In this document: one piece after another, positions 13,417 through 21,881 of the stretch
How positions within the stretch are numbered: position 1 is the first letter of the stretch
How the letters are laid out: every line of letters begins with the position of its first letter
NCBI GenBank assembly: GCA_017640725.1
Contig: JAEPQB010000001.1
Location: 868,001-932,000, forward strand
Length of the DNA: 64,000 nucleotides
Direction of reading: 5' to 3'
DNA from: Kordiimonadaceae bacterium
GTDB taxonomy: Bacteria; Pseudomonadota; Alphaproteobacteria; Sphingomonadales; Kordiimonadaceae
Notes under the pieces: model-generated
Database searches by the model: none
What the model was told of the DNA's origin: nothing
The model's input: the letters and a program-made list of their open reading frames with translations, nothing else
Translations under genes and position numbers: made by a program

Positions 13417-14619
13417 ATGCCCGTAATATTGCTGGCCATTTTTATCGACCTAGTTGGCTTTGGCATAATTGTTCCTCTGTTGCCATTCCTGACCTTGACG
13501 TACGGCGCCGATACCTTCACCGGCACGGCCCTGATCTCCGTTTACGCCTTTGCCGCCTTTGCGATTGGACCAATTTGGGGACGCATATCAGACCGCATTG
13601 GGCGCAAGCCAACGCTCGCCATTACGTTTTTGGGGGCGGCACTTGCGTACCTGATGCTGGCGCTGTCCAGCAGCCTTTTGATGGTTTTTGTGGCGCGCGC
13701 CATATCGGGCGCCATGACAGGCAATATCGGTGTTGTTATGGCGGTTATGGCTGACCTGACTGACGAAGAAAACCGAGGCAAAGCCATGGGCAGAATTGGC
13801 GGCGCCTTTGGTCTGGGCTTTGCGTTTGGGCCAGGCATCGGCGGCTATCTCAGTGGATTGGGCGGTGACAATATCATATTTTTGCCTGCTATCGTTGCCT
13901 GCGGCTTGTCGCTTTTTGCCATGATCCTCACGGCGATTTATGTGCCTGAAACCAATCCATCCTCGCTTGAAGAAACAGCGACGGCCCTTGACCCCAAAGC
14001 TGATGCACCCAGCAACGGCTGGCGCGACATTATTTTGGCACCATCGCGAATCTCTTTGTTCGTGATGTTTGTGGTTACAGCTGTTGCGCAAAGTATCAGT
14101 TTCTCCATCGCACCATTTTGGATGGAGGAGGTTTTAAGCTGGGGCCCGGTTGATGTTGGCCTCATCCTGATGGGTGTCGGTGTCCTGGTCTTCTTTTTCC
14201 AGGTTTGGTTAATCGGTCCGCTGTTTAAGGCGATCGGTGAAATCCGTTCGCTACAGTTTTGCGCCGTTTTTCATGTCATCGGATGCCTTGTCCTAATCTT
14301 TGGGCCAGAAGAACCCATCACAGCTGCCATCAGTTTCCCGCTTGTGCTGGGCGCGCTTTCCGTGAGTTACCCTGCACTCAACAGCCTGCTGTCCAGGCGC
14401 ACGGACAGGCGCATCCAGGGCGCGGCGCTCGGCCTTTCAAATGGGGTTTCGTCGCTTGGCCGGATTGCCGGCCCACTGGCGGCTGGCCAGTTGTTTTCAG
14501 CCCAGTCGCCCGGTGCGCCCTTCATGATCGTGAGCGTAATTGGTGTGGCAATCTTCGCATGGGCCTGGTTCGAGCATTTCAGACGGCCCTATCGCAGGGC
14601 ACCCGCACCGCCCGAATAG
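13417..14619 (+). CDS. MFS transporter, DHA1/TetA type
   Basis: A 400-residue inner-membrane transporter with 12 predicted helices. Motif A between helices 2 and 3 is GRISDRIGRKP (about 50-60). The antiporter motif C appears as GPGIGGYL near 138-145. Both mark proton-driven drug efflux proteins of the DHA1 family (TetA, BcrA relatives). The central cytoplasmic loop lies near residues 180-205. The gene is divergent from the methyltransferase and ends 3 nt from the stop of the facing lipoprotein gene. The exported substrate cannot be told. Confidence 0.87.
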   Translation: MPVILLAIFIDLVGFGIIVPLLPFLTLTYGADTFTGTALISVYAFAAFAIGPIWGRISDRIGRKPTLAITFLGAALAYLMLALSSSLLMVFVARAISGAMTGNIGVVMAVMADLTDEENRGKAMGRIGGAFGLGFAFGPGIGGYLSGLGGDNIIFLPAIVACGLSLFAMILTAIYVPETNPSSLEETATALDPKADAPSNGWRDIILAPSRISLFVMFVVTAVAQSISFSIAPFWMEEVLSWGPVDVGLILMGVGVLVFFFQVWLIGPLFKAIGEIRSLQFCAVFHVIGCLVLIFGPEEPITAAISFPLVLGALSVSYPALNSLLSRRTDRRIQGAALGLSNGVSSLGRIAGPLAAGQLFSAQSPGAPFMIVSVIGVAIFAWAWFEHFRRPYRRAPAPPE

Positions 14620-14622
14620 CAA

Positions 14623-15273
14623 CTATAGTTGGCAGGCTTCGCGGTTTTGTCCAATCCAGTCGCCAGCGTCACGGCTGATCGATGCCATCGCGCGGTTAAA
14701 ACCGTCAACAACATCAACACCATCAGATCCGCTGACAGCCTCGCTTGCGGCAAAAGTCGGCTGTCCGAGCAAGGCGTTATCAATGTAGCGAACCAAAATA
14801 AGCTCGATTTCGACATCGACCCGGTCGTCACTGATACTGTTGCCCGGAACATACTCATAATCCCACACTTTGACACCCAGCCTGCACCCGGCTTTCACGT
14901 CCAGTGCACCTTCACCCAGCATCAAGGCGCCCGACTGCGCGGACAGTCCCCGCACCAGATAGTCCCGCACCATGTCCGTGGTGTTCGCGTTCCAGCGCAC
15001 ACCCATGAGACTTGTTCGCTGGTTGTCATCAAGCACAACAGAAACCTGGGTGCCGCTCAGACCGCCACTCATCAGAGGTTCAGCCACATAGATCACAGAT
15101 GCGGCACTGCTGTGGTCCCCTGCCACTGGATAGTCGAGGCTGAAGATCTGGTCGGCAGGCCCATCATCACCGAAAGAAATGAGCGGTCCACACCCCGCGA
15201 CGAGCATAAGCGAGGACACAGCAACCGCCTTGGAAACCATATTGAAGGTTTTTTTCACTGAAAAATCTGACAT
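14623..15273 (-). CDS. ABC-type transport auxiliary lipoprotein (PqiC/MlaC-position)
   Basis: A 216-residue lipoprotein. Signal peptide about 8-27 with lipobox LMLVAGC, the acceptor Cys at 28. The body fits the ABC-type transport auxiliary lipoprotein family (PqiC/YmbA-like, DUF330 group), which goes with MCE transporters. The ATG overlaps the MlaD stop by one base (TGATG), so it is the last gene of the MlaE-MlaF-MlaD operon. It likely sits in the outer membrane or the outer leaflet of the inner membrane and receives or delivers lipid. No MlaC homologue is seen in the operon. Confidence 0.82.
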   Translation of the reverse strand: MSDFSVKKTFNMVSKAVAVSSLMLVAGCGPLISFGDDGPADQIFSLDYPVAGDHSSAASVIYVAEPLMSGGLSGTQVSVVLDDNQRTSLMGVRWNANTTDMVRDYLVRGLSAQSGALMLGEGALDVKAGCRLGVKVWDYEYVPGNSISDDRVDVEIELILVRYIDNALLGQPTFAASEAVSGSDGVDVVDGFNRAMASISRDAGDWIGQNREACQL

Positions 15274-16247
15274 CAGTTGTCCTCCTCAACAGTTTTGCGG
15301 CTCTTCAAGTCATACTCCGCTTCTTTTGTGCCGAAAATGACTTCAGCCGGGTTTTGTTCGATGCGGCTCATTAACCGCGACAGGTTGCGGGCCGTCACGC
15401 GCAAATCAAGGATCATTCGCGATACCTCGGGCAAGCTTGTGTTCACAAACTGCGTGACCGTACCTTCGTTCGCGGCGACCATGTTGTCTACCCGCTCCAG
15501 AAGGGCTGTTGCTGTTTGCATGGTTTTAGCTGTTTCAGCGATCAACTGACGCGCATCCTCGCCGATGACCGTATTGCTGGTTTCGACAAGTGTTGTGATC
15601 CGCTCTGCTGCTGTTTGTGCCTGCGCCAAAATACCCCGGACTTCAGCCACCATTACTTCAAGGTCTTCTGTGCCATCGGCAAGGTTGCCTGTTAGCCGCT
15701 CAGTATTGGCGATAATACCAGCCACATTTTCCAGGTTGTCGTCATTCAACAGTTTTTGGATCTGACCTGTGAGCAGAATTGCCTGATTGACGAGATTTGG
15801 TGCACTTTCAAAAAATTCCGCGAGTGGCGATGGCTCGGATTTTATGATCGGTCGCTCCTGCCCCGGGTGCGGCACCAGCGCAGGCGCATCCCGGTTATGA
15901 CCACCATAAAGTACGATGAAAGCAACACCCGTGAAGCCCTGAAACTCAAGCTTTGCGATCGACTCTTCGTTCACCGGCACTTCTGCGCGAACCCTGACCC
16001 ACACCAGAACCTGGCTGGGGTCTTCGGGATTCAACGAAATGTCGCGCACTTCACCCACGGGAATGCCTTGGAAATAGACAATGGAACGGTTCAAAAGACC
16101 GCTGACCGACCCCTCAAAGTAAATGTCATAGTCATTATACTCTGCGTCCAGGTCCACCTTGGCGAGCCAGATCGCAAACGCCACCAGTCCGGCAAGGAAC
16201 GTGAGGACGAACCCGCCGACCAACATGTATGAAGCTCTGGTTTCCAT
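15273..16247 (-). CDS. mlaD: MCE-domain lipid transport protein (MlaD family)
   Basis: A 324-residue membrane-anchored protein with one N-terminal helix (about 7-29) and one MCE domain (about 38-120, including YFQGIPVGEVRDI and the Gly-Val-Ala segment TGVAFIVLYGG). A long helical tail (about 145-300) follows; it could form the needle-like coiled coil seen in other MCE proteins. The ATG at 16247 has AGGAAG 7 nt upstream; an open frame reaching 16313 is not needed. It is 11 nt downstream of mlaF and one base overlaps the lipoprotein gene. Confidence 0.9.
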   Translation of the reverse strand: METRASYMLVGGFVLTFLAGLVAFAIWLAKVDLDAEYNDYDIYFEGSVSGLLNRSIVYFQGIPVGEVRDISLNPEDPSQVLVWVRVRAEVPVNEESIAKLEFQGFTGVAFIVLYGGHNRDAPALVPHPGQERPIIKSEPSPLAEFFESAPNLVNQAILLTGQIQKLLNDDNLENVAGIIANTERLTGNLADGTEDLEVMVAEVRGILAQAQTAAERITTLVETSNTVIGEDARQLIAETAKTMQTATALLERVDNMVAANEGTVTQFVNTSLPEVSRMILDLRVTARNLSRLMSRIEQNPAEVIFGTKEAEYDLKSRKTVEEDN

Positions 16248-16258
16248 TGTATTCTTCC

Positions 16259-17065
16259 TTAGCTCAGTCCAGCAGCACGCGCGCGCGGACCGCCAAAATA
16301 TTCCTGCACCCAATGATGCTTGAATTTCACCACCTCAGTGAGAGGTGCGTTGATGAGGATTTTTTGATCCCCCAATACTGCAACTCGGTCACACACACGG
16401 AACAAAGTGTCCAGGTCATGGGTGACCAAAAACACCGTTAACCCCAGCGACCTGCTTAGCTCCTGCACCAGCCCGTCAAAGGCAGATGCACCAATAGGGT
16501 CAAGCCCCGCTGTTGGCTCATCCAAGAACAGAATTTTGGGATCAAGCGCCAGCGACCGTGCCAGCGCGGCCCGTTTGCGCATACCGCCTGACAAATCAGA
16601 CGGGAACTTCTTGCCAGCGTCGCCCGGCAGACCCGCCATCTCGATTTTACTGCGCGCAAGATCGTCCAGCATGTCTTGTGGGAATTCGTAAAATTCCCTC
16701 AGCGGCACCTGGATATTTTGCGCGACCGTCAGGGAACTGAATAAAGCGCCGTCCTGGAACAAGACACCCCAGTCCTGGCGCGACATACGCTCTTCTTCGC
16801 CCGACAAGTTCGCCTGGTCAAAACCATTGATCTCAATCGAGCCTTCGATCTGCTTGTTGAGGCCTACGATAGTTTTGAGAAGAACTGACTTGCCGGTACC
16901 AGATCCACCAACGATGCCGAGAATTTCACCGCGATGCACGTCGAGGTCCAGGTTGTTATGGATCACATGCGGGCCAAAAGCGGTCCTTAGGCCACGAATC
17001 TTTATGATCGAATCGACCTGTTCTGGTGCGCCGTCCGGCTTGGGAGCATTTTGTAAATCGTCCAT
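16259..17065 (-). CDS. mlaF: Mla ABC transporter ATP-binding protein (MlaF-like)
   Basis: ATPase of the phospholipid transporter, 268 residues. Walker A GGSGTGKS at 53-60, signature LSGGMRKR, Walker B ILFLDEP followed by TAGLDP, and a switch His in VTHDLD. The LSGGMRKRAALAR signature and the DPIGASAFD stretch are typical of MlaF. I start at the ATG at 17065, which has AAGGGGGG about 4 nt upstream. The same frame stays open to 17389, but that part only mirrors the permease gene. The stop of mlaE is 10 nt upstream. Confidence 0.93.
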   Translation of the reverse strand: MDDLQNAPKPDGAPEQVDSIIKIRGLRTAFGPHVIHNNLDLDVHRGEILGIVGGSGTGKSVLLKTIVGLNKQIEGSIEINGFDQANLSGEEERMSRQDWGVLFQDGALFSSLTVAQNIQVPLREFYEFPQDMLDDLARSKIEMAGLPGDAGKKFPSDLSGGMRKRAALARSLALDPKILFLDEPTAGLDPIGASAFDGLVQELSRSLGLTVFLVTHDLDTLFRVCDRVAVLGDQKILINAPLTEVVKFKHHWVQEYFGGPRARAAGLS

Positions 17066-17075
17066 GCGCCCCCCC

Positions 17076-18224
17076 TTAAAGCCCAATTGCCGAGAAAAAG
17101 ACGGCAAACATCGCGTCGAACGCAATGACCAGGAAAATAGACTGCACCACGCTTTGCGTTGTGCGCGCACCGAGCGAGTCTGCGCTGCCTTCAACACGAA
17201 GGCCTTGGTAACACCCACTTGTTGCAATGATTGCAGCAAAAAATGGAGCTTTGATGATGCCGACCCAGAAGTGATCGATGACCACCACTTCACGGAAATA
17301 AACGATGAAGTTGCCGGGGGAGATACCAAGCTGCGCCCACGCCATAAGCATACCGCCAGCGATGCCAACAATGTCTGAATAAAAGGCAAGTAACGGCAGG
17401 CAGATCAATAAGGCCACCAGCCTGGGCAGCACTAGAACGTCAATGGGGTCCATGCCGAGCGTTTTCATGGCATCGACTTCTTCATTGAGCTTCATGGAGC
17501 CGATTTGCGCGGTGAACGCACTACCCGATCGGCCAGCAATGATGATGGCTGTCAGCAAAATGCCAAGCTCTCGCAGGTGGGTAATACCCAGCATATCGAT
17601 GACAAAAATATCTGCGCCAAATTTAGCGAGCTGAATGGCGCCCTGATTGACCATAACAGCGCCTATCAGGAACGAAATCAGCCCGACGATGCCCATGGAC
17701 CGCAAGCCAACCACATCCATCTGGTGCACGATGGGTGCAAACCTGAAATGTGTGGCGCCAGCACCGCGAACGAGCACACGCCCAAGAAAACTAAGCAATC
17801 GCGCAAGTGACCGGAGCGCAAGCCATGTTGCCTGCCCTGTGCCAAGAAGAGGCACCACATACCAGGGTGGCATGTCCGGCATTGTGGGTGTCGGAAGGGG
17901 GCACGTATGAATAACTTCAAGCAACGCTTTGTGCTGGTCCGGCACGCCAATAAGGGTGGCTTCACAATGTTCGCCCACCTGGTCAGCAAATCTGCGAACT
18001 AGCACAGCGCCTGTGGTATCAAGTTTGTCGATACCGCGGCAGTCAAGCATGGGTAAGGCCGCTGGCTTTTTACCACCAGGAAACAATTTGCGCATCGTGG
18101 CGTTGATTGCGTTTGCGTTTTCGATGGTCCAGTCACCGGTTAATACCATGTGATTGGTGCCTTCGACGTTTTCAAACATCACGAATTCGCTGTCGATGAC
18201 GGCAGTGGCCACACTGATCCTCAT
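17076..18224 (-). CDS. mlaE: STAS-MlaE fusion permease
   Basis: A 382-residue protein with two parts. Residues about 18-105 look like a STAS domain (LDCRGIDKLDTTGAVLV around the conserved Asp-x-Ser/Thr switch position). Residues about 125-380 are the MlaE permease: five or six helices, the conserved GLRSMGIVGLISFLIGAV, ELGILLTAIIIAGRSGSA and EEVDAMKTLGMDP segments. In E. coli the STAS protein MlaB is separate; here it is fused, a layout known in many alphaproteobacteria. Start ATG at 18224 has a weak ribosome site; an ATG at 18179 is the other option. Confidence 0.93.
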   Translation of the reverse strand: MRISVATAVIDSEFVMFENVEGTNHMVLTGDWTIENANAINATMRKLFPGGKKPAALPMLDCRGIDKLDTTGAVLVRRFADQVGEHCEATLIGVPDQHKALLEVIHTCPLPTPTMPDMPPWYVVPLLGTGQATWLALRSLARLLSFLGRVLVRGAGATHFRFAPIVHQMDVVGLRSMGIVGLISFLIGAVMVNQGAIQLAKFGADIFVIDMLGITHLRELGILLTAIIIAGRSGSAFTAQIGSMKLNEEVDAMKTLGMDPIDVLVLPRLVALLICLPLLAFYSDIVGIAGGMLMAWAQLGISPGNFIVYFREVVVIDHFWVGIIKAPFFAAIIATSGCYQGLRVEGSADSLGARTTQSVVQSIFLVIAFDAMFAVFFSAIGL

Positions 18225-18347
18225 TCATCAATTGATGCACGAACTACAAAACACACACCCTGCTACCCTTGCGAAAGTTGGATGCCCTTGCAAGTAGAAT
18301 ACGCCAAAAGCAGAAGTTGGCTCGAAATTGTGATCAAATACAGTTGC

Positions 18348-19142
18348 TTAGACACTGACGCGCCGCGACTGCAAAATCTCGTTCGCCAGTTTTTTGGACC
18401 GGAAGTTGTCCACGTCAATGGGCGCTTCCGGAAACGGCATTCTTATGGCCACAAGGTTGGTATTGAATTTTTTCGACAACCGACTCATGCCCTTGTCCAG
18501 GCTATAAAGCGCAAACCTGTAGGCTATGGCGTTCCATAGTCCAAAAGCTTTCAATACACGCGCGAGACTTTTTGCGAACTGACCGCCAGTTTGGAAAACA
18601 CGCGCTATGTCACTGGTTTCCTTGTCGCACACTGCATACAGATTGCAGTTGGAATATTCATTGTCCGCAAACTTGTGGAAACGACGCTGACCGTCCGGAT
18701 AAACGTCGAGCAACACAGCCTTTTCCGTGACCGCAATAGCGGCCCGCGCCTGCCTGGCACGAATTTCCCCACAAAAATGCCCCAGCATGGCGGGGGTCAG
18801 CAGAACATTGTCAGCCGTTGTAATGATCGACGGGTAACGGTCTTCACCTTCAACCGCACCCAAAAAACTTGAAAACAAGTCAGTTGCAGCTTCAACAGCC
18901 CGCGCCTTGCCTTCGTCACGAAGCCGTACAAATGTCTCCACTTCCTCAAGCACGGAAACACTGTCAATTGATACTGTGATGCGATCCACATCAGGACTGG
19001 CATTCAAGCAATCAAGCACATGCTCGATCAGTTTTTTGCCATCCATCTCAATCAAGCATTTGTGGCTGACGCCTGCATCTGCTGCAAGCTCATTCACCAC
19101 GCCGACGCGCTGCGCCGCCATAACTACCGCGTGAAACTTCAT
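18348..19142 (-). CDS. Nucleotidyltransferase-like protein (GT-A fold)
   Basis: A 264-residue protein resembling MobA-type or sugar-nucleotide NTP transferases. The N-terminus FHAVVMAAQRVG fits strand 1, but the usual G-x-G-x-R-(M/L) loop is degenerate. K28 in SHKCLIEMDGKKLIEHVL matches the conserved Lys and the G-x-P/K-L-I step. TTADNVLLTP at 108-117 holds the metal-binding Asp (D111). A C-terminal IDVDNF segment matches the second metal-binding Asp site. Substrate unknown. It begins 13 nt after the ATP-grasp gene with AAGGG upstream of the ATG, so the two are probably co-transcribed, and it lies 123 nt ahead of the Mla operon. Confidence 0.72.
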   Translation of the reverse strand: MKFHAVVMAAQRVGVVNELAADAGVSHKCLIEMDGKKLIEHVLDCLNASPDVDRITVSIDSVSVLEEVETFVRLRDEGKARAVEAATDLFSSFLGAVEGEDRYPSIITTADNVLLTPAMLGHFCGEIRARQARAAIAVTEKAVLLDVYPDGQRRFHKFADNEYSNCNLYAVCDKETSDIARVFQTGGQFAKSLARVLKAFGLWNAIAYRFALYSLDKGMSRLSKKFNTNLVAIRMPFPEAPIDVDNFRSKKLANEILQSRRVSV

Positions 19143-19155
19143 CGCGCTTTGACCC

Positions 19156-20169
19156 TTAAATAATGTCTTCCTGCGTGATCAGGCCCTGCCGCAGCATACT
19201 GTGTGCGAGAATTGTTTCAATCAATTCCGGATATTCAACCCCGGCACATTTAGCGGAAAATGGCACCGCCTTCTTTGACCACAAATTACAGCTCAGGTTT
19301 ATTTCTAGGAAATTGAGCGCATCTGTGGCTGGATCATATTTGAATTCCATGCGCGCATAATCGCACGGCCAGATTTCAGGCAAAATGTCGTGCGCGTGTT
19401 TGTGCAAGCGCTCAACAATTGGCTGCTCATCATAAACCGTAAGCACCACTTCGTCGCTGGGTGCCAGATGACGTTTTTGTTCGTAGGAGCGAATAGCCAG
19501 TGGGTCGTCCACTTCAAACCGAATAATTGGCAAAATCCATGGACCACGGCCACCTACAATTGGCACGGCCAATTCGTAACCATCCACAAAGGCTTCCACG
19601 ATGGCGTCGTGCCCTCGTTCATGTAAATAGTGAATATGAGTTAGCGCATCGTCCCAGCGCTCCACCGCTTTGATGCCCCAAGAGGCTGAGCTGGCATTTG
19701 GTTTCACAACCATGCGCCCGTCACTGAAAGGCGGGGGTGTTATCTCATGGCAGCCGCGGCGAAAAATTTCCCAGTCCGGCGTCGATAGACCCCGACTTTT
19801 TGCTGCGAGTTTCATCAGGTGTTTATCGTCGCCAAGCCCACGCAGGATGGGGCTTGCGCCCAAAAATGGAACGTTCCTGTAGGTGGCCAGCAACGGGGCC
19901 AGCATTTCGCTATTCAGGAAACCACCCCGGTTGAAAAGGGTGAACAGGAAATCATAGTTTGGCACTTCGAACAGGCGCTCATAGCGTCCGCAGGCTTCGA
20001 TATTCAAGCCGATGCCTTTGAGCGTTTCCCGCAACTCATAATGATAGGTGGCGTGGGTACCGTCTTCTTTGTCGGGTGTTCCATCCCCCTCAGCCCATTT
20101 GGCCAGGAATAGAACTCGCAGTCTGTCTTTGGCCTTCTCGCCCAGGCGAAGACACTGTTCGTGCGGCAT
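19156..20169 (-). CDS. ATP-grasp ligase, D-Ala-D-Ala ligase-like
   Basis: A 337-residue protein of the ATP-grasp fold. VVKPN at 154-158 carries the ATP-binding Lys, VEAFVDGYE at 191-199 the central-domain acidic step, and ARMEFKYDP then FLEIN at 287-291 the metal-binding Glu and Asn. The residues after it (LSCNLWSKK) differ from the N-T-x-P-G-(M/F)-T ending of true D-alanine ligases. So I expect a ligase for a different carboxylate and amine. Ribosome site GAGG 5 nt before the ATG at 20169. First gene of the run that continues into the nucleotidyltransferase. Confidence 0.75.
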   Translation of the reverse strand: MPHEQCLRLGEKAKDRLRVLFLAKWAEGDGTPDKEDGTHATYHYELRETLKGIGLNIEACGRYERLFEVPNYDFLFTLFNRGGFLNSEMLAPLLATYRNVPFLGASPILRGLGDDKHLMKLAAKSRGLSTPDWEIFRRGCHEITPPPFSDGRMVVKPNASSASWGIKAVERWDDALTHIHYLHERGHDAIVEAFVDGYELAVPIVGGRGPWILPIIRFEVDDPLAIRSYEQKRHLAPSDEVVLTVYDEQPIVERLHKHAHDILPEIWPCDYARMEFKYDPATDALNFLEINLSCNLWSKKAVPFSAKCAGVEYPELIETILAHSMLRQGLITQEDII

Positions 20170-20379
20170 AACTACCTCGTAATCTCGATGCTTCCCAAGC
20201 TAGACCATCTTGACGAATTGGTTTGCGCTCTCCACACGCGCATCTCGGCGATCCCCAGCATGCCAACCATCTACATTGTTTTTTTATGGATGCCAAATTG
20301 TTTCGAATGAAACGAGTGTCGTTCGTGGTCTTGTCATGGGCCAAAGCCAAGGCTAAGGTTAAAAAAAAGGAAAAATTTT

Positions 20380-21345
20380 TTGCGGGCGGACGGAACTACA
20401 TCTCTGAGAACACTCTACCCGGCAATTCAGCCATATCGAAAAGAATGGCTGTCGGTTGGTGATGGGCACAAAATCTATGTAGAGCAATCCGGAAACCCGA
20501 ACGGCTTGCCGGTTCTGTTTGTTCACGGTGGCCCCGGGGGTGGCACGAGCCCCATTCAACGGCGATTCTTCAATCCCAGCAAATATCGGATCATCCTGTT
20601 TGACCAACGCGGGTGCGGGCAATCTAAGCCCCATGCGTCTCTTGAGCACAACACGTCCCATCATCTGGTCAGCGACATGGAACGCATCCGCAGCCATCTC
20701 GCCATAGAAAAATGGATGCTGTTTGGTGGGTCATGGGGCAGCACGCTCGCGCTTCTTTATGCGCAAGCCCACCCCGAGCGGGTGCAAAGCCTGGTTCTGC
20801 GCGGCATCTTCCTGATGCGGCAAAAAGAACTGGACTGGTTTTACCGGGACGGTACAGGACGCATTTTCCCTGAGGCCTGGTCCCGGTTTGTGGGCATGGT
20901 TCCGGAGGGCGAACGCGAGGATATTATCGCCGCCTATTATCACCGACTGACAGACCCGGCATTTGAAGACACGCGGCTGCGGTTCGCGAAAGAATGGAGT
21001 TTGTGGGAAGGCAGCACTGTGACACTGGTACCCGACGAAGAGCAGCGTGCGCATTCGGTGGACCCCATATTTGCACTCGCCTTCGCGCGCATTGAGGCTC
21101 ACTATTTCCATCATAAAGGCTTTTTGGACACAGATGATCAACTCCTGCGCGACGCAGGCAAACTGATCGGTATTCCAACCACTATCATCCAGGGCCGCTA
21201 TGACAGCATTTGCCCGCCAAGCTCCGCATGGGAGTTATCAAAAGCCATGCCTTGGGCGAAACTGAAGATGGTACCGGTGGCCGGCCATTCCGCTTTTGAA
21301 CCTGCAATTCAGCATGAACTGATTTGCGCCACAGATGCGGCATAG
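20380..21345 (+). CDS. pip: Prolyl aminopeptidase
   Basis: Cytosolic serine peptidase of family S33 that removes N-terminal proline. 321 residues. Oxyanion motif HGGPGGG at 49-55, DQRGCGQS at 75-82, nucleophile Ser118 in GGSWGS, and a C-terminal His in AGHSAFEP. The LYPAIQPY start segment and DGHKIYVEQSGNPNG are standard for the family. I use the TTG at 20380, which has AAGGA about 8 nt before it; no ATG lies close enough upstream in this frame. The roughly 210 nt upstream hold nothing I can support. Confidence 0.9.
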   Translation: MRADGTTSLRTLYPAIQPYRKEWLSVGDGHKIYVEQSGNPNGLPVLFVHGGPGGGTSPIQRRFFNPSKYRIILFDQRGCGQSKPHASLEHNTSHHLVSDMERIRSHLAIEKWMLFGGSWGSTLALLYAQAHPERVQSLVLRGIFLMRQKELDWFYRDGTGRIFPEAWSRFVGMVPEGEREDIIAAYYHRLTDPAFEDTRLRFAKEWSLWEGSTVTLVPDEEQRAHSVDPIFALAFARIEAHYFHHKGFLDTDDQLLRDAGKLIGIPTTIIQGRYDSICPPSSAWELSKAMPWAKLKMVPVAGHSAFEPAIQHELICATDAA

Positions 21346-21422
21346 TGACCTGAGGACTTGACCCATCGGCACGCGGAAGGGCATTTAAGGCCCAGTTCAA
21401 TTCCGCTGGAGCGACGATTCCC

Positions 21423-21881
21423 ATGAAAGCTGCCGTATTCGCCCTATTTTCCATGCTGGTCATAATGCCCACCACAGCAAAGGGCCATGACACAAACGCT
21501 GATCATACTTTGGATATTTCGGACGTCTGGGCTCGCAAGACCCGCCGCACCACATCTGCCGCGGTGTATCTGAAAATTCACAACGGCACAGAAACGGTCG
21601 AGTCTATTACAGACGTGTCCAGTCCAATTGCCAATATGGCAACGCTTCATCTTTCTCAGGAAGTGGACGGCGTCATGCGCATGGACATGCAGGACAGCGT
21701 GCCTGTGCCAGTCGGTGCCACAGTGGCATTTGAACCTGGTGGCCTGCACATCATGCTCATGGGGCTTAGCAAACCTCTGGCCGAAGGCGATGTTTTTCCA
21801 GTAACGCTCAGCTTTGAACAAGCGGGTGACATCACAGTTTATGTGGACGTTACCGGACTTTCAGGCCCGCAGACGAAGTAG
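21423..21881 (+). CDS. PCu(A)C copper chaperone
   Basis: A 152-residue secreted protein. Signal peptide about 1-20. The periplasmic domain has the copper motif H-x-M...H-x-M in loose form: LHLSQEVDGVMRMDMQ near 77-92 and PGGLHIMLMGL near 114-124. PCu(A)C proteins carry Cu(I) to the CuA site of cytochrome c oxidase in alpha- and betaproteobacteria. No SCO1/SenC partner is adjacent here. It ends 11 nt from the stop of the facing cysteine-containing secreted protein. Confidence 0.87.
   Translation: MKAAVFALFSMLVIMPTTAKGHDTNADHTLDISDVWARKTRRTTSAAVYLKIHNGTETVESITDVSSPIANMATLHLSQEVDGVMRMDMQDSVPVPVGATVAFEPGGLHIMLMGLSKPLAEGDVFPVTLSFEQAGDITVYVDVTGLSGPQTK

Follow-up and report, generated by a model that had tools for sequence, protein, structure and literature searches.

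The window, by which we mean the whole stretch of 64,000 nucleotides that was analysed, carries on its minus strand a gene for an ATP-grasp ligase (AG) and, directly behind it, a gene for a nucleotidyltransferase (NT), followed by an Mla operon (Table 1). Both genes had been called in a reading made from the sequence only, and both hold up as real ORFs with the spacing given there, ahead of the mlaE start at 18224. The closest named relatives of the window are uncultured Kordiimonas genomes, with AG at 86–89%. A consensus promoter scan of positions 14000–21500 gave chance-level results (7 found vs 5.0 expected); the terminator scan of the same region found 14 vs 9.0 expected, and none of these was used. 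Five proteins were compared with the PADLOC defence models and had no match at E ≤ 0.01, although a missing model is no proof. Neighbourhood genes were called by a codon model and tblastn; longest-ORF calling yielded antisense ORFs in GC-rich loci.

Table 1. Genes and features of the AG–NT locus and its borders (positions in the window).
Feature	Coordinates	Strand	Remarks
AG, ATP-grasp ligase, D-Ala-D-Ala-ligase fold	19156..20169	minus	ORF of 337 aa, ATG start
AG residues 291–295, N-L-S-C-N (N-T-x-P-G in D-Ala ligases)	19285..19299	minus	Coordinates computed from ORF
Gap from AG stop to NT start, 13 nt	19143..19155	minus	Fits one transcript
NT, MobA/CofC-like nucleotidyltransferase	18348..19142	minus	ORF of 264 aa, ATG start
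NT residues 9–28, alternative but conserved loop for nucleotide binding, containing Arg12 and Lys28	19059..19118	minus	Coordinates from ORF
NT residues 108–112, T-T-A-D-N, putative metal-binding Asp111	18807..18821	minus	Coordinates from ORF
Gap from NT to mlaE, 123 nt	18225..18347	minus	Weakly conserved CTTG...TTGGCGA-like block
mlaE, MlaE permease	17076..18224	minus	N-terminal STAS_2 match below cut-off; neighbour, outside the AG–NT system
mlaF, ATPase, 268 aa	16259..17065	minus	Gene caller; start from that length (raw ORF start 17389)
mlaD, MlaD domain, 317 aa	15273..16226	minus	Gene caller; start from that length
ABC-transport auxiliary lipoprotein, PF03886	14623..15273	minus	Last gene of the Mla operon
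Alpha/beta hydrolase	20380..21345	plus	Divergent; bounds the variable slot on its other side in relatives of the Kordiimonas group

AG matched the Pfam family Dala_Dala_lig_C at 5.5e-13, with the C-terminal ATP-grasp domain (PF07478) above its cut-off (49.3 bits vs 24). The AlphaFold model (mean pLDDT 87.1) showed a complete D-Ala-D-Ala ligase (Ddl) fold and matched Pseudomonas aeruginosa DdlB (PDB 8evy) with a Z score of 28.8 over 303 residues at 2.8 Å, confirming the D-Ala ligase-like assignment. AG shares with Ddl the whole fold and the ATP/Mg catalytic residues: the ATP/metal set of two Lys, Glu, Arg, Glu and Asn is present as K116, K156, E192, R273, E289 and N291, and these residues, together with K232, make up an ATP-grasp set that is invariant in 25/25 homologues. 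In other respects it departs from Ddl. Sequence identity to DdlB is 20%, no match to the N-terminal domain PF01820 was found in Pfam at E ≤ 1, and the NCBIfam Ddl cut-offs were not reached (best 72.6 bits vs 243). The replacement of the usual N-T-x-P-G ending, already noticed in the window, extends through the family, with N291, C294 and N295 invariant in all 25 homologues to give N-x-x-C-N. The Ser and Tyr of the Ddl first-substrate site, which we take to correspond in numbering and role to S150 and Y216 of E. coli Ddl, are replaced by Ala162 and Arg233, again without exception in the 25 homologues. The N-terminus of AG did not align reliably with Ddl, and the equivalent of Ddl Glu15 was left out of the comparison. 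Since the ATP-grasp residues are kept and the substrate sites are rewritten, AG reads as an active ligase with substrates other than those of Ddl, and Arg233 may point to a first substrate that is acidic or carries a phosphate.

The same genome carries a separate, canonical Ddl (L173:6596-7810), the reference for these replacements, with both PF01820 (9.7e-29) and PF07478, which, along with the replaced substrate residues, ruled out AG as the Ddl of the cell. Plasmid matches to AG (24 records, the best at 28.6% identity) led to remote proteins of the ATP-grasp or D-Ala-ligase-like kind and were uninformative.

NT matched NTP_transf_3 in Pfam at 4.1e-8, above the curated cut-off of the MobA-like NTP transferases of PF12804 (34 bits vs 27), in agreement with its having been read as nucleotidyltransferase-like. 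The best fold match to the predicted model (pLDDT 91.9) was Thermus TTHA0179, followed by GlmU and IspD. TTHA0179 (PDB 2dpw) is the closest solved structure by profile (E 1.3e-25) as well as by fold (Z 23.5, 230 residues, 2.8 Å), but it is only 18% identical to NT and is titled "hypothetical transferase"; a search of the open-licence literature turned up no paper on it. The fold and PF12804 are likewise shared with MobA, IspD and GlmU, but no NCBIfam model reached its cut-off for NT. The nucleotide loop, which had been described as degenerate, is instead a different but conserved family form: ten residues (A9, R12, K28, G35, P104, D111, N167, G201, D243 and D245) are invariant in 33/33 aligned NTs. 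(The L148 NT was left out of alignment A5 because of an in-frame stop in its span; the span L148:8792-9721, as extended by script, is either a possible pseudogene or wrongly drawn.) From the invariant Arg, Lys and Asp residues, NT looks catalytically competent, with a loop that is unusual but not decayed, and a degenerate, inactive protein could be ruled out.

A set of 396 genomes of the order was searched with a profile for AG and with one for NT. AG was found in 117 and NT in 149, with both in 114 and NT alone in 35. Homologues without each other had been named as evidence that would count against the pair, and this expectation was borne out in part. AG lacks NT in just three of its 117 genomes (G454, G455 and G472, with divergent AGs in the latter two), while NT occurs without AG in 35 of 396 genomes when counted at E ≤ 1e-60, a number to which the MmgE-linked type described below contributes; counting only AG-type NTs (E ≤ 1e-85) leaves 8. 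The wider NT family was present in 51 of 59 relatives, many of them without AG. A class-wide draw found AG in 5/385 genomes, three of the five being outside the order, where AG is rare, and divergent. Kinship between genomes inflates all co-occurrence counts of AG and NT.

AG neighbourhoods were read in 61 of the 117 AG genomes (window included), hand-picked for genus diversity and thus not a random sample, together with six further loci. The resulting 67 in-group AG loci exclude the plasmid locus L083, the divergent AGs (two each in L114 and L115, and those of L116, L152 and L153) and the loci L053 and L056, which duplicate L117 and L118. NT lay within 2.6 kb of AG in 43/67 loci, and in 27/67 it followed AG directly, on the same strand and no more than 100 bp away. 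This arrangement is not due to chance. Neither NT nor the PLP-like gene described below was nearby in 11/67. The association also extends beyond mere adjacency, since the 97 AG genomes of family f5 include 57 that carry the AG-type NT apart from AG; another 39 have it within 4 kb, making 96/97 in all. Inside one of the genera g308 and g19, 10 genomes had both genes, none AG only, two NT only and at least 14 neither (p 1e-5); the corresponding numbers in the other were 24, 0, 3 and at least 12 (p 1e-7). These p-values carry no correction for phylogeny, the counts were taken by hand from genome lists, and the "neither" counts are lower bounds, since the genus is not given for every genome and most of those counted were noticed through carrying a flippase. 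Such co-retention of unlinked genes inside genera would be hard to obtain without a shared function. The proposal that AG and NT belong together is therefore upheld, by 114 of 117 AG genomes and even when the two lie at a distance from each other. We found no literature on the pair in a search limited to open-licence PMC papers. The two enzymes of the locus, one with an ATP-grasp and one with an NTP-transferase fold, are intact, conserved and retained together.

The link to the Mla operon behaved differently. Within f1, the family of the window, mlaE was found within 3 kb of AG in 14/17 loci (one of the other three, L060, is on a contig that ends near AG, so that mlaE is outside the view), and the order AG–NT–mlaE was kept in all eight close Kordiimonas loci, including the window. 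Outside f1, mlaE, scored here for mlaFED, was within 3 kb of AG in 0/50 loci. In f1 genomes that lack AG, the slot before mlaE is occupied by an MmgE/PrpD gene and another NT, divergent from mlaE. The block that precedes mlaE (18225–18347) recurs in some sister genomes behind other upstream genes, although the conservation is weak (36% mean column identity), and mlaE may thus have a promoter of its own. With mlaE near AG in f1 only, the link looks positional, and the Mla operon seems to be a neighbour at a variable slot and not a partner of AG–NT. The sequence-only reading suggested that the pair could make an activated small molecule for use by the MCE/Mla transporter or the membrane. The enzyme classes fit the making and activating of such a molecule; the link to the transporter falls with the many AG loci that have no mlaE nearby.

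Two other gene families recur near AG or NT. At least 49 of the 65 f5 NTs (E ≤ 1e-85) that are unlinked to AG lie within 3.5 kb of a member of the polysaccharide-type flippase family PF01943. This is a lower bound, from a comparison of 72 flippase places in which each genome was represented by a single NT (E ≤ 1e-85), and G597 was scored as not linked though its NT and flippase sit at opposite ends of one contig. The flippase family was also present near AG in 9/67 loci, including both Parvularcula-type loci, and in 11 of 20 NT-centred regions (NT itself was called in 19 of these by the codon-model caller, which missed it in L190). With at least 185 of the 396 genomes, the family is more widespread than the AG–NT pair. 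The genome of the window has only weak matches to it, at 2e-12 (the flippase of the ceramide cluster discussed below) and 2e-4 elsewhere, so that the flippase fails as a third partner for Kordiimonas.

The second family is a protein of ~490 aa, encoded divergently to AG and within 300 bp of it in 16/67 loci. We read it as PLP-enzyme-like from its sequence; it had no Pfam match (in L067, L121 and L133), no NCBIfam match (one member) and no PDB profile match. An example is L121:5719-7191, with 15 homologues in alignment A6. An ATPgrasp_ST gene (PF14397) was near AG in 5/67 loci. Among the divergent AG homologues, those of L152:7474-14000 and L153 adjoin asparagine-synthase-like proteins, of which L152 has three in succession; the one that was tested matched GATase_7 above and Asn_synthase below cut-off. 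In L114:3524-6628 and L115:8107-11209, two divergent AG copies lie back to back with an ABC substrate-binding gene between them, and a protein that matches HAMP and MFS is found next to them.

In a tree, 63 NTs fell into clades of 54 and 9 rows with 100/100 support. The window NT is among the 54, which are AG-linked, MmgE/PrpD-linked or lone NTs, while the nine comprise NTs of plasmid sphingolipid operons and a second NT of the window genome (L078), a long branch whose placement is less sure. The AG and NT trees were midpoint-rooted, with long branches flagged, and draw mostly on AG-centred loci, so that the AG labels arise partly by construction. The split by context is imperfect, since three of the nine sphingolipid-type rows (L057_2479, L065_7320 and L069_6767) lie near AG or MmgE genes. 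A second type of NT, paired with an MmgE/PrpD-family protein (L071:7227-9482, L176:6046-8291 and L178:7659-10179), constitutes a separate, uncharacterised module; in other families, MmgE-linked or related NTs adjoin a GT2 gene and a protein with weak, below-cut-off sulfotransferase similarity (domains tested in L176 only). Elsewhere, NT relatives form fusion proteins with a HAD phosphatase domain (PF12710; L185:7347-9005 and L186:7597-9426), the former adjoining a protein that by eye resembles CDP-glycerol transferases and has no Pfam match.

LptF/LptG and metallophosphoesterase genes were nearby in all five of the plasmid loci that were read for NT, and three of the five also had a CDP-alcohol phosphatidyltransferase and a gene annotated as phosphocholine cytidylyltransferase, CpgD-like by position. 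Another NT relative lies near a CDP-alcohol transferase in L184. Several NT-relative contexts, though not all, thus point to activated envelope parts. The plasmid operons resemble, by analogy of gene order, the CC_1153 region of C. crescentus described in PMC11324152. According to that paper, a CC_1153 mutant has no detectable ceramide diphosphoglycerate, and the gene is genetically required for a sphingolipid that replaces LPS, its reaction being a proposal. CpgD is a CTP:phosphoglycerate cytidylyltransferase that makes CDP-glycerate and has the conserved active-site residues Arg16, Lys26 and Asp112 (PMC12275187). Reading the two papers together, we equate CC_1152 with CCNA_01210/CpgD. As judged through the plasmid homologues at the corresponding operon position, CC_1153-type NTs share superfamily, loop form and length with the window NT, but the latter belongs to the separate clade, is partnered with an ATP-grasp ligase and lies outside a sphingolipid operon. 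CpgD is likewise a nucleotidyltransferase, one that serves the envelope, and its three residues listed in PMC12275187 have counterparts in Arg12, Lys28 and Asp111 of NT; the CpgD-like plasmid genes (named by position), however, belong to a different subfamily, with PF00483 scoring best in the one tested.

The window genome itself has a cluster (L170:13208-19475, G000:C9) of a CerS-like gene, a desaturase, a flippase-like gene (no Pfam match) and two LptF/LptG genes. The CerS-like gene is on a contig other than that of the window, where NT adjoins AG and mlaE. No good match to a CpgD-like gene was found in this genome, the best (6.6e-5) covering the N-terminus only, and the CPG2 pathway via CpgD was accordingly ruled out for it. 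A CerS cluster without a good CpgD-like match possibly makes a different sphingolipid headgroup.

The joint retention of AG and NT in many related genomes makes it probable that they act in one pathway. The reading that we prefer, and to which we give an even chance, is that they catalyse two steps of a small pathway leading to a nucleotide-activated envelope precursor that contains an amide or peptide, with Mla a mere neighbour. AG, with its catalytic set placed by alignment, would use ATP to form an acyl-phosphate and join it to an amine, as in D-Ala-D-Ala ligase but with different substrates. NT, of known superfamily and with its residues in place, would transfer a nucleotide, probably CMP to judge from the context, to a phosphate carried by the AG product or by a precursor of it, the substrate and the order of the steps being our suggestion. 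In Sphingomonadaceae-like relatives, the flippase encoded beside NT might move the product or its carrier across the membrane, as the gene link suggests. Gene context also indicates that the role of the product is perhaps in the envelope. A more detailed version, which we put forward tentatively and consider rather doubtful as a whole, would be an envelope pathway of the Kordiimonas/Sphingomonas type in which the PLP-like protein (where present) and AG build an amide of an amino acid or a dipeptide, which a CC_1153-like cytidylyltransferase converts to a CDP-peptide-like donor, and the NT-side flippase (Sphingomonas type) exports a carrier lipid or glycan.

Other explanations have to be weighed against the envelope precursor. 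The pair could make a diffusible natural product resembling an amino acid or dipeptide (a siderophore, antibiotic or signal), for which an unusual amino acid would come from the PLP-like enzyme. The divergent PLP-like neighbour and the asparagine-synthase-like genes beside AG relatives in two genomes would fit this, as would the use of ATP-grasp ligases in predicted peptide-making operons elsewhere (PMC2922099), but no NRPS-sized gene, and no export gene besides the flippase, was noticed among the families that recur near AG or NT, and an AG found in as many as 117 of 396 genomes would suit a common function better than a specialised metabolite. We consider this explanation unlikely. Somewhat similarly, NT might work in a phosphosphingolipid pathway of the ceramide diphosphoglycerate type, like CC_1153, with AG decorating the lipid. 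NTs in the Roseomonas and Diaphorobacter plasmid operons do occupy what appears, from PMC11324152, to be the CC_1153 position, and the window genome has its own cluster of suitable genes. Against this, the window NT falls in the other, fully supported clade and it is L078, with the reservation about its placement, that groups with the sphingolipid-type NTs; the best CpgD-like match is poor; and AG–NT lies outside the ceramide cluster. A role of this kind appears improbable.

That AG and NT make a headgroup or modified lipid carried by MlaFED is suggested by their position, on the same strand as mlaE with NT 123 nt upstream, and by the constant gene order in close Kordiimonas relatives. Since this order is confined to f1, while AG-less f1 genomes have the divergent MmgE/PrpD and NT genes in the slot and the pre-mlaE block, albeit weak, recurs behind other genes, we rejected the coupling to Mla and regard such a lipid as very unlikely. 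Least credible is that AG serves peptidoglycan synthesis as a spare D-Ala-D-Ala (or D-Ala-D-X) ligase, with NT an unrelated neighbour. AG has the full Ddl fold, but it lacks the PF01820 match that the genome's own Ddl has, its substrate residues are replaced, and it co-occurs with NT; we would be most surprised if this proved correct.

The NT clade described here is sister to the CC_1153-like NTs and is linked to a ligase and partly also to a flippase. It thereby constitutes a second, genetically tractable entry to the question of what such NTs activate. Sphingomonads have sphingolipids in place of LPS, and an activated envelope precursor in these bacteria would therefore be directly testable by lipidomics.
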